From Halosegnis longus (GTDB lineage: Archaea; Halobacteriota; Halobacteria; Halobacteriales; Haloarculaceae), in the NCBI RefSeq assembly GCF_009663395.1, contig NZ_QKNW01000001.1:1798001-1862000 (forward strand): a stretch of DNA of 64,000 nucleotides, written 5' to 3'. Each line of letters begins with the position of its first letter. Within the stretch, counting starts at the first letter, position 1. The notes under the pieces were generated by a model. That model was not told where the DNA came from and ran no database searches. It worked only from the letters and a program-made list of their open reading frames with translations. The translations under genes were made by a program, and so were the position numbers. This document shows, piece by piece, positions 2,844 to 47,640 of this stretch.

Positions 2844-3878
2844 TCACCCGAACATCGCGCCGAGGCCCTCGCCGCCGTCGGAATCGTCGTCGTCATCCTC
2901 GGCGTCGTCGGCGTCGGCATCCGCGTCCGCATCTTGGTCACCGCTCTGTTCGTCTGCGTCGTCCTCCTCCGTCTCGTCCGGCTCCTCGGGAACCTCGATG
3001 TCACGAAGCTCCTCGGGTAAGGCCTCCTCGTCGTCGATAGCGACGGCCAGCGCACGAAGCTGTGCGTCGGCCTTCGCGACGAGGTCGTCGGCGAGGTCCG
3101 GCGACTCGATAGCCGCGTGGATACCGAGCGCCTTCGCTTCGCCGCTCGCCTTGCCCAGCAGGATGCCGGCGGTCTGGGCCGTCGGGTAGACGGCGTTGAC
3201 CGAGAGATTGCGTGCACCAGCGACGGCGGACTCGATGTCCGCGCGGTACTCGTCCACGTCGATCTCCAGCTCCTCGGGCGAGAACACGACGCCGTCGGAG
3301 TAGACGCCGCGCAGGTCGAGCCCGACCTCCTTCGGCTCGATGCCGAGTTCGGTCAACACGTTCGCCAGCACCTGACTGACCTCCTCTCCGGCTTCGAGGA
3401 CGGTTGAGTCCTCGGTCACCTGGATGGAGCCGTCCATGATGCGGGCGGCCGCGCCGGCCTGCTGGAGGTCACCGACGAACGGACCGGGGTCGACCCCGGT
3501 GTCACCCTCGGGGATGACGATGTCGTTCGGTGCGATTTCGCCGGCGCCGATCGGCGCGGGCGTCTTCGACGCTTCGAGCGTCTTGAACAGACCGAACGGG
3601 TTGTCGTTCGTCCCGATGATGCCGACCTGTCCGTGGACGTGCTCGGAGAGCACGTCGAGGTCAGCCTCCGCCAGCGCACGCTTCAGGAGCGTGTTCCGCG
3701 AGACACGCAGCTCCGCGGAGCCGTGAAGCTCGCGGCGCATGTCCTGCAGCTGGCGGGACGGAATTCCGGCGATGTTGACGATGCCGACGGACTCGTAGGA
3801 GTCGAGCATCCCGACGATGTCGTCGACCTCCTCTCGCTTCCAGTCCGGAATCGTCTTCGTCTTTCGTTCGGCGCTCAT
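2844..3878 (-). CDS. rpl10: Large-subunit ribosomal protein L10 (P0)
   Basis: A 344-residue P0/L10 protein that anchors the L12 stalk dimers to 23S rRNA. The first 100 residues or so form the rRNA-binding domain (W-K-R-E-E near residue 13; [12 protein letters not shown] near 61-72), an archaeal insertion domain follows, then the long helical L12-binding region (about 220-290) and an acidic tail ending GEGLGAMFG. The start overlaps nothing: the stop of L1 lies one base before. It is co-transcribed with L1 and L12. Confidence 0.97.
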
Positions 3879-4629: not shown

Positions 4630-5853
4630 TCACCACGACAGCGGCCGCTCGATGCCGTCGACGACCCGTACGAACGCCGTACCCGCGAGCAGGAGACACC
4701 CCCACGTTCCCGGCTGCGCGAGGAAGTAGACGAGCGCGCGGTCGAGCGCTGGAACCGCGACCGGGACGATTTCCGTAATCGCGAGCAGTCCGTACGCGTG
4801 GACGGCCGCGAGCCCGAGCCCGAGGGTCGGAACCACCGGCCGTCCGCCGCGTTCGAGTTCGCCGTGAATCAGTATCGCCGCCGCCGGGAGCAGAGCGACC
4901 AGATAGTACGTGTACGCGAGCGTCGTGAGCAGCGGGAACGCCGCGAGTCCGAGCGCGAACGTCTCGCGGTCGCGGTCGCGCGCGAGCAGCGCGGCCGCGG
5001 CGACGACGAGCACGGCGGGCAGTCGGAGCCACAGCGAACTCGCCAGCCAGCCGAACGGCTTGAAGTAGGGGGAAAGCCACAGCGCCGGCGACCGGGAGAG
5101 GCCGCTCCGATTGACTCCCCAGGCAAGCACCTCGATATACGTCCGGTGCACCTCGACACCGAAGAGGAGCAGCGAGAGACCGACTAGTCCCAGTCCGGCC
5201 ACCACCGCCCCGACGAAGCGGTCACGGTTCGCGAGCAGATGTGTCCCGACCGGTGCGTACGCGAACTTCACGACGCCGACGACGCCGGTCAACGCGCCGC
5301 TGGCGAAGCGGGCCGGCCGCGACTCCATTCCACGGTCGAGGCCGACGAACGCGAAACAGAGTAACCCAGCGGTGAACGCCGCGGTTTGACCCATCTTCAT
5401 CGCGAGCAGGAGCGGCTGGTAGCCGACGAGCAGCCACAACAGAAGCAACCGCTCCGGCCACGACCGTCGCCCGGCGAGTCGCTCGACGAGGAGCACCATC
5501 CCGCTCCACAACAGGAGGAGACTACAGGCGATCCACAGGGGGTCGCCGGTCCCGCGGCCGAGGGCCGCGAACGGTCGGAAGAGGACCAGGACGATGGGCG
5601 GATACAGGTAGCTCCCGTGGTAGCCGCCGTCCTCGTTGCGGGTGTAGATGTGGTCGTTCGTCCGCCACGCCTCGACGGCCTGGTCGTAGACGCCGAAGTC
5701 CCAGAAGCTGAACGGGGGTGCGATGTCGGCGGCACGGAGCCACCAGTCGACGAACGGGTACGCGAGATGGAGCCCGACGAGCAGCGCGGAGAGGGCGACG
5801 AACAGCGGATGCTGGTCGTAGCAGGTTCGGAGACGGTCGCGGAGGGCCATCAT
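4630..5853 (-). CDS. GT87/DUF2029-type polyprenol-dependent membrane glycosyltransferase
   Basis: A 407-residue integral membrane protein with about 9 to 11 hydrophobic helices and a first extracytoplasmic loop containing WDFGVYDQAVEAW (about residues 49-61), the Asp-bearing loop of GT-C glycosyltransferases, followed by YPPIVLVLFRP. This matches glycosyltransferase family 87 (mannosyl/arabinosyl-type transferases that use lipid-linked donors). The acceptor is unknown; a role in surface glycan or lipid glycosylation is inferred. It is placed between the L11 and L1 genes on the same strand. Start chosen at the first of two adjacent ATGs (MMALRD); the long upstream extension is antisense to L11. 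Confidence 0.75.
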   Translation of the reverse strand: MMALRDRLRTCYDQHPLFVALSALLVGLHLAYPFVDWWLRAADIAPPFSFWDFGVYDQAVEAWRTNDHIYTRNEDGGYHGSYLYPPIVLVLFRPFAALGRGTGDPLWIACSLLLLWSGMVLLVERLAGRRSWPERLLLLWLLVGYQPLLLAMKMGQTAAFTAGLLCFAFVGLDRGMESRPARFASGALTGVVGVVKFAYAPVGTHLLANRDRFVGAVVAGLGLVGLSLLLFGVEVHRTYIEVLAWGVNRSGLSRSPALWLSPYFKPFGWLASSLWLRLPAVLVVAAAALLARDRDRETFALGLAAFPLLTTLAYTYYLVALLPAAAILIHGELERGGRPVVPTLGLGLAAVHAYGLLAITEIVPVAVPALDRALVYFLAQPGTWGCLLLAGTAFVRVVDGIERPLSW

Positions 5854-44377: not shown

Positions 44378-45187
44378 ATGGAAGAGGGTGCGCTCGACGA
44401 GAAGCCGAGAGTCAGAGACTACATGACACGCGACGTCGCTACGGTGAGTCCCGACGACACCGTTTCGAACGTCGCAAAGCGCATCGCCGAGAGCGACGAG
44501 ACACACTCCGGCTTCCCGGTGACGAACGGGAGACAGGTGGAGGGGTTCATCACGGCGCGTGACCTGCTGCTCGCAGACGAGGTCGCGCCGATATTCACCG
44601 TGATGACCGATGACCTCGTCGTCGCGCACCCGGAGATGAAGATACACGACGCCGGCCGCGTCATCCTCCGGTCCGGCATCCAGCGGCTCCCGGTGGTTGA
44701 CGATGCCGGCAACCTCGTCGGCATCATCTCGAACTCGGACGTCGTCCGGTCACAGATCGAGCGAGCGACCCCGAGCAAGGTTCGGAAGCTAATGGCGACG
44801 CTGACCAACATCCACGGCGTCGAGACGACGGAGGAACGCCGGACGGTCAGCCTCGCCGAGTTGACGCCCACACAGAGCAAGGTGTACACCGACGAGCTAC
44901 AGGGACGCAGCTACGAGCTGGAGAACGGGCTCGCCGAACCGCTCGTCGTCATCGACAACCGCGGGCAACTGCTGCTCGCCGACGGGCACCACCGAGTGAA
45001 GGCCGCCCACCGGCTCGGCATCGAGGAGATGGACGCGTACGTCATCGTCCTCGACCAGCGCGTCGAGTTGGGGATGGCAGAGACCGCGCGCAAGGAGGGG
45101 TTGGAGTCGGTCGAGGACATCACCGAGGTCGACTACGGCCACCACCCGCTGGTCGAGACCACCCACCGGCTCATGGACGAGAACTGA
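44378..45187 (+). CDS. CBS-domain protein with ParB/sulfiredoxin-like C-terminus
   Basis: A 269-residue protein: two CBS domains (about 12-72 and 75-132, with RDYMTRDVATVSPDDTV and GIQRLPVVDDAGNLVGIIS) and a C-terminal ParB/Srx-like domain (about 155-235) with the nucleotide-binding motif LADGHHRVKAAHRLG. ParB-fold proteins with DGHHR include free serine kinases such as archaeal SerK as well as partition-type proteins. Adenylate sensing by the CBS pair is likely. It follows the DHH gene by 39 bases, same strand. Confidence 0.82.
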   Translation: MEEGALDEKPRVRDYMTRDVATVSPDDTVSNVAKRIAESDETHSGFPVTNGRQVEGFITARDLLLADEVAPIFTVMTDDLVVAHPEMKIHDAGRVILRSGIQRLPVVDDAGNLVGIISNSDVVRSQIERATPSKVRKLMATLTNIHGVETTEERRTVSLAELTPTQSKVYTDELQGRSYELENGLAEPLVVIDNRGQLLLADGHHRVKAAHRLGIEEMDAYVIVLDQRVELGMAETARKEGLESVEDITEVDYGHHPLVETTHRLMDEN

Positions 45188-45257
45188 GTGTCGTGCGAGT
45201 TATTCGCCTTCGGAGTGTACCCCTCTGTATGTCTCACACGCTTACAGTAGGTGACAG

Positions 45258-45881
45258 ATGAATTCGAACCAGATAGATTTCCTCACCGACCTCGCGTACG
45301 GGCTGCTTTTGTTCGCCGCTATCGTGCTCATTGCGACCGGAAGCAGAGCCGCAGGTATCGCCTTCGGACTCGGCGCGCTCGTCTCGTACGTCGTCCACGT
45401 CGGCTGGAAGATGGCCCGGTTCGACCCCGACTGGATGACCAAGGAGGTGACCGAGAACCTCGAAGAGAGCGTCGCAGAGGAAGTGTCGGAAAGCGTGACG
45501 GAGGAGGTCTCGAAGAACGTCGAGGAGACCGTTACGGAGGAAGTATCCGAGAGCGTGACGGAGGAGGTTTCGAAGAACGTCGAGAAGACGGTTGCCGAAG
45601 AGGTGTCGAAAAACGTCGAAGAGACCGTCAGCGAGAGCGTCGAGGAGACCGTCACGGAGGAGGTGACCGAAAACATGGCAGAGGAGGTTTCGAAGAACGT
45701 CGAGGAGACGGTCACGGAGGAAGTGACCGAAAACGTCGAGGAGACGGTGACCCAGAAGGTGACCGAGAACGTCCAGGCGACGCTGACCTCGGAACTGGAC
45801 TCCATCATCGCCCAACTGGAGGAGGTCAACGAGCGAATCGACGAGCGCGACGACGAGGACGAGGAGGAAAAAGAGAACTAG
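45258..45881 (+). CDS. Membrane protein with an unbroken 4-residue (tetrad) repeat
   Basis: A 207-residue acidic protein. Two transmembrane helices (about 8-27 and 31-50) are followed by a region with a hydrophobic residue at every fourth position from 64 to 184 without exception: 31 consecutive positions, 26 of them Val. Intervening residues are almost only Glu, Thr, Ser, Asn and Lys (TEEV, SKNV, EETV, SESV). From about 183 the spacing changes to heptads (I183, L187, V190, I194), then an acidic tail. The DNA is internally repetitive too (see 45447-45809). I know no described family for it. A membrane-tethered rod or self-assembling filament is one reading; the function is unknown. Confidence 0.8.
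   Translation: MNSNQIDFLTDLAYGLLLFAAIVLIATGSRAAGIAFGLGALVSYVVHVGWKMARFDPDWMTKEVTENLEESVAEEVSESVTEEVSKNVEETVTEEVSESVTEEVSKNVEKTVAEEVSKNVEETVSESVEETVTEEVTENMAEEVSKNVEETVTEEVTENVEETVTQKVTENVQATLTSELDSIIAQLEEVNERIDERDDEDEEEKEN
45447..45809 (+). repeat. Coding repeats of the tetrad-repeat protein
   Basis: Within the gene, variants of tcgaagaacgtcgaggagac recur near 45510, 45570, 45608 and 45690, interspersed with gtgacggaggag units. The similarity at the nucleotide level, including synonymous positions, suggests growth by duplication and recent homogenisation rather than selection on protein sequence alone. Confidence 0.7.
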
Positions 45882-45942
45882 CCCGGACGATTCCGGCAAA
45901 GATTGCTAAAGATTCTTTACTGCAGTTCGCGTAGCCGGTGGT

Positions 45943-47640
45943 ATGTTCGACGATGACGACCTCGCGGAGATTCGTGACGGCCGCGAGTCGTGGGAAGACG
46001 AGACGCTCGCCGACTATCTGGAGTACGGCGAGCGGCAAGACCGGTTCGCGACGGTGTCGAACCACGAAATCGACCGGCTGTACACGCCCGAGGACGTCGC
46101 CGATATCGACTACGACGAGGACCTCGGTTTCCCCGGCGAGGAGCCGTACACGCGGGGCGCGTATCCGACGATGTACCGCGGCCGGACGTGGACGATGCGG
46201 CAGTTCGCCGGCTTCGGCACCGCCGAGGAGACCAACGAGCGGTTCCACTATCTCATCGACGAGGGCCAGACCGGCCTGTCGGTCGCCTTCGACATGCCGT
46301 CGCTGATGGGGCTGGATTCCGACCACCCGATGGCGGACGGCGAGGTCGGCAAGGAGGGTGTCGCCGTCGACACGCTCGCCGACATGGAGATACTGTTCGA
46401 CGGCATCGACATCGGCGAGGTCTCCACCTCCTTCACTATCAACCCGAGTGCGGCGGTCGTCTACGCGATGTACATCGCGCTCGCAGACCAGCAGGGCGTC
46501 GCCCGCAACCAGATTCGTGGCACCCTCCAGAACGACATGCTCAAAGAGTTCATGGCCCAGAAAGAGTGGGTAATTCCGCCCGAACCCTCACTCGACGTGG
46601 TGACCGACACCGTCGAGTACGCGGTCACGGAGACGCCGAAGTTCCACCCCGTCTCGGTGTCGGGCTACCACATCCGCGAGGCCGGCTCGACGGCCGCACA
46701 GGAGGCCGCGTTCACGCTGGCGGACGGCTTCGCCTACGTCGAGGACGCACTCGACCGCGGGCTTGACGTGGACGAGGTCGGCCCGCTGCTCTCCTTCTTT
46801 TTCAACTCCCACAACTCCATGTTCGAGGAGGTCGCGAAGTTCCGCGCGTCGCGCCGCATCTACGCGCGCATCATGGACGAGTGGTACGACGCCGACGCGC
46901 CGGAGTCGAAGCGGCTGAAGTTCCACACCCAGACCGCCGGGCAGTCGCTCACCGCCCAACAGCCGCTCAACAACATCGTCCGCACGACGGTGCAGGCGAT
47001 GGCGGCCGTCCTCGGCGGCACCCAGTCGCTTCACACCAACAGCTACGACGAGGCGCTCGCGCTCCCGAGCGAGCGGGCCGTCCGCGTCGCGCTCCGGACC
47101 CAACAGATTCTGGCAGAGGAGTCCGGCGTCGGCGACACGGTCGACCCCCTCGGTGGGAGCTTCGCCGTCGAATCGCTCACCGACGAGCTGGAAGCCGAAA
47201 TCATGGAGTATCTCGAAGAAATCCGCGAGCTGGGTGACGGCTCCGTCCGCGACGGCGTGCTCGAGGGCATCGACAACGGCTACTTCCACCGCGAGATCCA
47301 GGAAGCCAGCTACGAGTATCAAAAGCGCGTCGACGCGGGCGAAGAGACCGTCGTCGGCGTCAACGACTACGTCACCGACGACGACCCCGACATCGACATC
47401 CTCCACGTCGACGAGGGGGTCCAGGAGACGCAAATCGAGCGACTGGAGCGTGTCAAGCGCGAGCGCAACGACGACGCCGTCCGGCAGTGTCTCGACGACC
47501 TCGCCGAGGCTATCAACGGCGACGCGAACGTGATGCCGTACATCGTCGACGCGGTGAAGGTGTACGCGACGATGGGGGAGATAATGGAGACGTTCGAACA
47601 GCAGTACGGCACGTACTCGGAGAAAATCGGGCTGGCCTAA
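45943..47640 (+). CDS. mcmA1: Methylmalonyl-CoA mutase, large (catalytic) subunit
   Basis: A 565-residue TIM-barrel catalytic subunit that interconverts succinyl-CoA and methylmalonyl-CoA with adenosylcobalamin. Key segments: YTRGAYPTMYRGRTWTMRQF, SVAFDMPSLMGLDSDHP, STSFTINPSAA and RLKFHTQTAGQSLTAQQPLNN (shortened here to TQTAGQSLTAQQPLNN). The B12-binding domain is not fused; in archaea it is a separate small subunit, not found in this window. The cobalamin uptake genes at 18-21 kb could supply the cofactor. It starts after an AT-rich promoter-like stretch (tgctaaagattctttac). Confidence 0.95.
   Translation: MFDDDDLAEIRDGRESWEDETLADYLEYGERQDRFATVSNHEIDRLYTPEDVADIDYDEDLGFPGEEPYTRGAYPTMYRGRTWTMRQFAGFGTAEETNERFHYLIDEGQTGLSVAFDMPSLMGLDSDHPMADGEVGKEGVAVDTLADMEILFDGIDIGEVSTSFTINPSAAVVYAMYIALADQQGVARNQIRGTLQNDMLKEFMAQKEWVIPPEPSLDVVTDTVEYAVTETPKFHPVSVSGYHIREAGSTAAQEAAFTLADGFAYVEDALDRGLDVDEVGPLLSFFFNSHNSMFEEVAKFRASRRIYARIMDEWYDADAPESKRLKFHTQTAGQSLTAQQPLNNIVRTTVQAMAAVLGGTQSLHTNSYDEALALPSERAVRVALRTQQILAEESGVGDTVDPLGGSFAVESLTDELEAEIMEYLEEIRELGDGSVRDGVLEGIDNGYFHREIQEASYEYQKRVDAGEETVVGVNDYVTDDDPDIDILHVDEGVQETQIERLERVKRERNDDAVRQCLDDLAEAINGDANVMPYIVDAVKVYATMGEIMETFEQQYGTYSEKIGLA

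Follow-up and report, generated by a model that had tools for sequence, protein, structure and literature searches.

How might a protein fold when its hydrophobic residues recur at exactly every fourth position, tetrad after tetrad? The question is raised by a gene of the haloarchaeon Halosegnis longus, located in the window analysed here, a stretch of 64,000 nucleotides (contig NZ_QKNW01000001.1, positions 1,798,001 to 1,862,000). A first-pass annotation made from the sequence letters had singled it out as a membrane protein with 31 such residues in a row. Accepted coiled-coil periods run from about 3.3 to 3.9 residues, the upper limit being expected near 3.9, and a period of 4.0 lies beyond the accessible range; right-handed periods of 15/4 and 19/5 have been described, and YadA reaches 3.8 locally (PMC4786415). 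In a survey of dimeric coiled coils, 4-residue steps occurred at most twice in succession, and kinks were found at 4+4 (PMC9369452). Among the papers that we searched, none described a coiled coil built of tetrads or having a 4.0 period. Here we confirm and strengthen the original observation, find its interpretation partly supported, and describe the family to which the protein belongs and the genes beside which it lies.

A two-helix anchor joined to a tetrad array

The gene occupies 45258..45881 on the forward strand, as do all window features below unless stated otherwise. Read directly, it encodes 207 amino acids plus a stop codon; its reported boundaries proved correct, homologues were found, and a genome search showed it to be single copy. 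The two membrane helices proposed earlier are backed by AlphaFold2 (AF2) models, which place helices at residues 3-27 and 30-54, and by conservation in an anchor alignment. The first spans about residues 12-27 (45291..45338), with D7, D11, Y14 and G15 invariant at or before its start, and the second about residues 31-49 (45348..45404), in whose region G33, A35, F36, G39 and H47 are invariant. At the junction between anchor and array lies a signature, W-K-M-x-R-F-D-P-x-W-M (residues 50-60; 45405..45437), in which W50, K51, M52, R54, D56, P57, W59 and M60 do not vary across the alignment. By the positive-inside rule, K51 and R54 suggest that this side of the membrane is cytoplasmic, and from the same residues we infer that both termini are as well.

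The array itself, defined by its periodicity and by the repeat periods of its DNA, covers residues 60-184 (45435..45809) and contains 32 consecutive hydrophobic residues spaced 4 apart. Past residue 180 the spacing becomes 3-4-3-4, in agreement with the switch to heptads noticed at first pass. We read residues 180-194, LDSIIAQLEEVNERI (45795..45839), as a C-terminal heptad cap with core residues L180, I183, L187, V190 and I194, and this pattern recurs in many homologues. The protein ends in an acidic tail, residues 195-207, DERDDEDEEEKEN (45840..45878), and similar acidic tails are present in many homologues.

The period and its DNA repeat

Residues 64, 68 and so on to 184 are all Val, Leu, Met or Ile, exactly as first counted (31 of 31, of which 26 are Val), and with M60 the run is 32 long. 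The suggested Fourier analysis of hydropathy gave a peak at 3.99 residues with a power of 431, compared with 5.5 at 3.5, 3.3 at 3.6 and 4.5 at 3.667. The longest run in 20,000 shuffles of the segment was 9, and the longest comparable run outside tetrad genes was 6 in a negative control of 0.97 Mb of haloarchaeal DNA translated in six frames. The 31 core positions are not independent events, because the array DNA is a degenerate tandem repeat with periods of 60, 120 and 36 bp, all multiples of 12 bp. Core Val codons in the window copy are divided among GTC (12), GTG (9), GTT (4) and GTA (1), and the second base is T in 31 of 31 core codons; the third base has therefore had time enough to drift, with the hydrophobic residue retained. 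Checks for an RNA family and for a simple promoter or terminator explanation gave no result.

Opposite the arrays, the complementary strand too can be read as an open frame: at 45234-45899 on the reverse strand in the window, near 3418 on the plus strand in one homologous locus (L098; 481 aa) and near 2871 on the minus strand in another (L096; 733 aa). A repeat unit of 12 bp is what keeps the antisense frame open. In homologues these frames read as, for example, VSSTVSPT repeats, which makes them an annotation trap.

A widespread family without a described relative

When we searched 391 sampled genomes of the class with an anchor profile (residues 1-75, from the alignment of homologues), 270 had a match. 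Across 295 genomes of the phylum its matches fell only within the order, with none outside it, and searches of phages and of IMG/VR returned no match. Halosegnis rubeus is the nearest named relative, and annotated copies on plasmids are labelled hypothetical protein. Sequence searches of Pfam, NCBIfam and the PDB gave no entry that matched the anchor convincingly, bearing out the earlier statement that no described family has this pattern. The matches obtained reflected array composition only (DUF445, SseC, EcsC, GerPC, CdrL_M and others), and the window protein had none over cut-off. We rejected membership of DUF445 (PF04286): the window protein scored 22.9 bits (23.9 in the genome search) against a cut-off of 33.8, in a composition-driven match that spans the array and tail only and not the anchor. 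Weak, array-only matches to DUF445 occurred in 32 of 37 family members, with a best E value of 1.9e-7.

Array-only matches in other archaea were left uncounted; they comprised proline-rich PVSEP repeats (L152), probable wrong-frame readings (L156, L159) and unrelated proteins. One match of the array search, L160:108-1793, looks by eye like a type II/IV secretion-type ATPase frame whose C-terminus carries an octapeptide repeat, EPTSEAMD. Judged from its sequence, the tetrad protein is a new and widespread family whose hydrophobic period lies at or beyond the accepted coiled-coil limit.

The tetrad phase is kept while array length varies

Following the phase through homologues, a check that the first-pass annotation had proposed, we found it kept in arrays of variable length. 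Core steps after the anchor in 106 distinct homologues numbered 3300 of 4 residues, 252 of 3 residues and 9 of 8 residues, the last representing a skipped slot. Free loss of phase was not seen among these homologues, and we therefore regard the trait as selected. The longest tetrad runs reach 82 (L073, 397 aa), 67 (L098), 58 (L096), 57 (L080) and 52. Among the 93 arrays of 12 or more steps, mean period was exactly 4.0 in 33, at least 3.9 in 82 and 3.75-3.82 in 11, so that the window array (3.99) lies outside the accepted range of about 3.3-3.9 and those 82 of 93 lie at or above its upper end. The lower-period minority includes (4443)n, or 15/4, in L078 and periods near 19/5 in L038, L039 and L041; as these periods are already described for right-handed coils, a single family spans the passage from them to 4.0.

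Several homologues of one genus (L049-L055, L059, L060, L062, L066) share one conserved 3-residue step with differing numbers of tetrads on either side. Array length differs freely among homologues, without steps of 36 residues, and some members are nearly array-free, their anchor being followed by the heptad cap (L016, L079, L114). Across the family, core Val is encoded by GTC in 76% of cases, GTG in 14%, GTT in 7% and GTA in 3%. The pN/pS ratio of the array was 0.21, close to the 0.19 of the anchor, both values being rough owing to repeat alignment, which also blurred pN/pS per repeat position too much for positions to be ranked.

Composition and geometry point to a helix with one face

Across 2809 interior slots, the core position is 96.1% Val and the opposite position (i+2) 92.0% charged; small polar residues make up 70.4% at i-1, and Glu, Gly and Ser are frequent at i+1. 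Prolines number 3 in 11,712 array residues, and the net charge is about -0.24 per residue. Such a composition is as expected for a putative helix with one fixed face and about 4.0 residues per turn. The earlier claim that a strict tetrad gives no fixed face is thus true only of a rigid, ideal 3.6-residue helix, since an underwound helix in a right-handed supercoil would keep one face, and the composition shows one. AF2 predicted helices at residues 57-124 and 134-206 in one low-confidence model of the window protein and at 63-126 and 135-206 in another, with a break between the array helices near 125-134. Mean pLDDT was 60 and 63, with the array mostly at 40-70 and residues 87-133 below 50 when an alignment was supplied.

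We also fitted a crude Crick-type model, using C-alpha atoms only and leaving superhelix and helix twist free. Strain at a period of 4.0 was 0.13-0.15 Å, compared with 0.05-0.06 Å for heptads (two to three times lower) and 0.13-0.15 Å for a 10/3 decad. The fit at 4.0 preferred a right-handed supercoil with a pitch of 100-121 Å, the local helix having about 3.8 residues per turn. On this crude model the geometry would be extreme rather than impossible, formation of the coil being itself a prediction. Among the three structural readings offered at first pass, the right-handed multi-helix rod fares best. A beta-structured repeat is disfavoured, because a strand would put Val and the charged i+2 residue on one face and because AF2 gives helix, and a helix evenly coated to lie in lipid is disfavoured by the net charge.

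Genes for PiT phosphate permeases adjoin the family

The window copy lies between a gene for a protein with two CBS domains upstream (44378..45187) and one for methylmalonyl-CoA mutase large subunit downstream (45943..47640), both of which are neighbours only in loci of the genus; this context suggests nothing about function. The main functional clue, which the first-pass annotation missed and which is not next to the window copy, is a neighbouring PiT-type phosphate permease gene (PHO4, PF01384). Such a gene lies within 700 bp of the tetrad gene in 51 of 66 loci across the class, where chance would give less than 1%. In 17 of these 51 pairs the two genes abut or overlap on one strand (for example L096, L105, L112 and L126), which suggests co-translation. 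The two genes stand in tandem, divergently or convergently, and a poorly resolved tree calls for 15 or more changes between these layouts; the adjacent permeases, grouped by identity to one reference, divide into 20 at 75% or more, 27 at 60-75% and 10 below 60%. By coordinates, a PiT gene is found within about 1 kb in all 8 plasmid-borne copies, two of which were examined.

PiT is absent beside the tetrad gene in the window genome, as in 14 other loci, and the window genome has three PiT genes elsewhere, one of them (L133) in the class below 60% identity. Co-occurrence is uninformative, because PiT-type genes are present in 145 of 146 family-level genomes whether or not a tetrad gene is there, with up to 11 matches each. 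Genes for universal stress proteins (Usp, PF00582) are the second commonest neighbours, in 18 of 66 loci (for example L125:4088-4513). One 10-kb stretch (L039) holds a local cluster of two tetrad genes, at 4889 on the plus strand and 5799 on the minus strand in the numbering of each strand, together with several PiT genes.

Searching with the array only revealed a second two-helix anchor carrying tetrad arrays, with the pattern ...LYG...GLVxGYxLRVWEKM/N-M-S/T-x-Y-E/D... (L153:1205-1771 and L161-L185). We found this sister anchor in 23 of 242 genomes of the class. A profile comparison shows it to be a homologue of the first anchor (hhalign 95.9%, E 5.9e-9), and in some of its arrays Ala alternates with Val in the core. 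Of 26 sister loci, 17 have a PiT gene no more than 1.5 kb away, in most cases immediately upstream and in the same orientation. Inherited gene order is therefore an unlikely account of the PiT link, as two divergent anchors share the same type of tail and the same neighbour.

Discussion

Our tentative reading unites the observed and conserved period with the anchor family and its neighbouring genes, and we give it slightly less than even weight: a cytoplasmic right-handed helical rod on a two-helix membrane anchor, acting as a partner of PiT. The anchor would sit in the membrane, and the cytoplasmic tail would self-associate, two to four chains together, into an alpha-helical rod with one Val per turn at its core, at the limit of 4.0 where every coiled-coil step is a stutter. 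Each chain would be underwound, with about 3.8 residues per turn, and the chains would coil steeply about one another in a right-handed sense before passing into the left-handed heptad cap. Gain and loss of 12-bp units would change the length of the rod, from almost none to about 330 residues, or roughly 45-50 nm. The anchor may bind or adjoin the PiT permease, and the rod may space, cluster or gate it, thereby acting on phosphate uptake, or may signal to the far end. A bolder version, conceivable if somewhat doubtful, is a true natural coiled coil of 4.0 residues over tens of nanometres, which Val cores together with a high salt concentration in the cell might stabilise and which would serve as a built-in PiT partner.

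The array could instead be an entropic bristle, a highly charged spacer that is largely disordered or a single helix, with the tetrad a by-product of repeat growth, since growth by 12-bp repeats would keep the phase automatically. DNA periods in multiples of 12 bp, the negative charge, low AF2 confidence across the array and the wide range of array lengths would all be in keeping with such a spacer. Yet core third bases have drifted and non-hydrophobic core slots are still almost absent, the rough pN/pS of the array is near that of the anchor, departures from phase are almost all helix-compatible steps of 3 residues, the i+2 position is overwhelmingly charged and proline is nearly missing; we consider the bristle unlikely, though it is a serious alternative. 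Our assessment is much less favourable for near-ideal 3.6-residue helices whose Val stripe spirals, with many chains side by side in a cable or sheet and each turn of the stripe facing another neighbour. On an ideal helix, residues spaced 4 apart do drift by 40 degrees per tetrad, the arrays are long and uniform, and AF2 models show plain long helices, but the division into core, flank and opposite charged positions fits one fixed face and the free variation in length lacks the 36-residue steps, leaving this packing very improbable.

The helical rod might also be real and its adjacency to PiT a matter only of shared regulation or inherited gene order, as for a general membrane scaffold. We find this account rather improbable: loci with no adjoining PiT, that of Halosegnis included, and the frequency of Usp neighbours speak for it, whereas the three layouts with their repeated changes (on a tree that is poorly resolved), the three identity classes of permease, the PiT genes beside every plasmid copy and the PiT neighbour of the sister family speak against it.

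The closest structural parallels to the preferred rod are right-handed coiled coils with 11/3, 15/4 and 19/5 periods, chief among them the stalk of YadA-type trimeric autotransporters, with which the tetrad array shares a core period above 3.63, an expected right-handed supercoil and a switch to heptads (PMC4786415). Repeats of 15/4 or about 19/5 belong only to a minority of the tetrad family (L078, L041, L039, L038), the window protein having tetrads and then heptads; most members stand at 3.9-4.0 over 16-82 successive tetrads, in contrast to the published extreme of 3.8, reached locally. The tetrad array also belongs, by its predicted topology, to the cytoplasmic tail of an archaeal protein with two membrane helices, and Pfam and NCBIfam scans found no autotransporter membrane-anchor domain in it. 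Alpha-synuclein, perilipin and LEA-type proteins form lipid-binding helices from 11-residue repeats rich in Val, Thr, Glu and Lys, with a period of 11/3. The tetrad array is likewise a repeated, predicted helix rich in Val, Thr, Glu and Lys, but its period is 4.0 rather than 11/3 and it is strongly acidic, so that lying on an acidic membrane is unlikely.

For the link to phosphate transport there are bacterial precedents. PiT permeases of bacteria have PitR, a PhoU-like (DUF47) partner encoded alongside, and some bacteria that lack PitR have SCO1846, a small uncharacterised membrane protein, beside pitA (PMC13170248). The tetrad protein resembles PitR and PhoU in its gene adjoining PiT, as a trait of the family and not of the window copy, and in being predicted to be helical; it differs in being membrane-anchored and repetitive, with no homology detected. 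Pfam scans found no PhoU (DUF47) domain in tetrad proteins, which would therefore act like the PitR partner without belonging to that family. Compared by description only, SCO1846 is similarly a small membrane protein at a PiT locus, unrelated to PhoU, but no array has been reported for it (PMC13170248). By analogy, the tetrad protein could take the place of PitR or SCO1846 in haloarchaea.

With hundreds of sequences found in nature at a period of 4.0 that grade into 15/4 and 19/5, the family amounts to a natural experiment on the ceiling of the coiled-coil period, and if its arrays fold they would offer a new type of rod for design. The link to PiT points to an unstudied layer of control or organisation of phosphate transport in haloarchaea, parallel to that of PitR and SCO1846 in bacteria.
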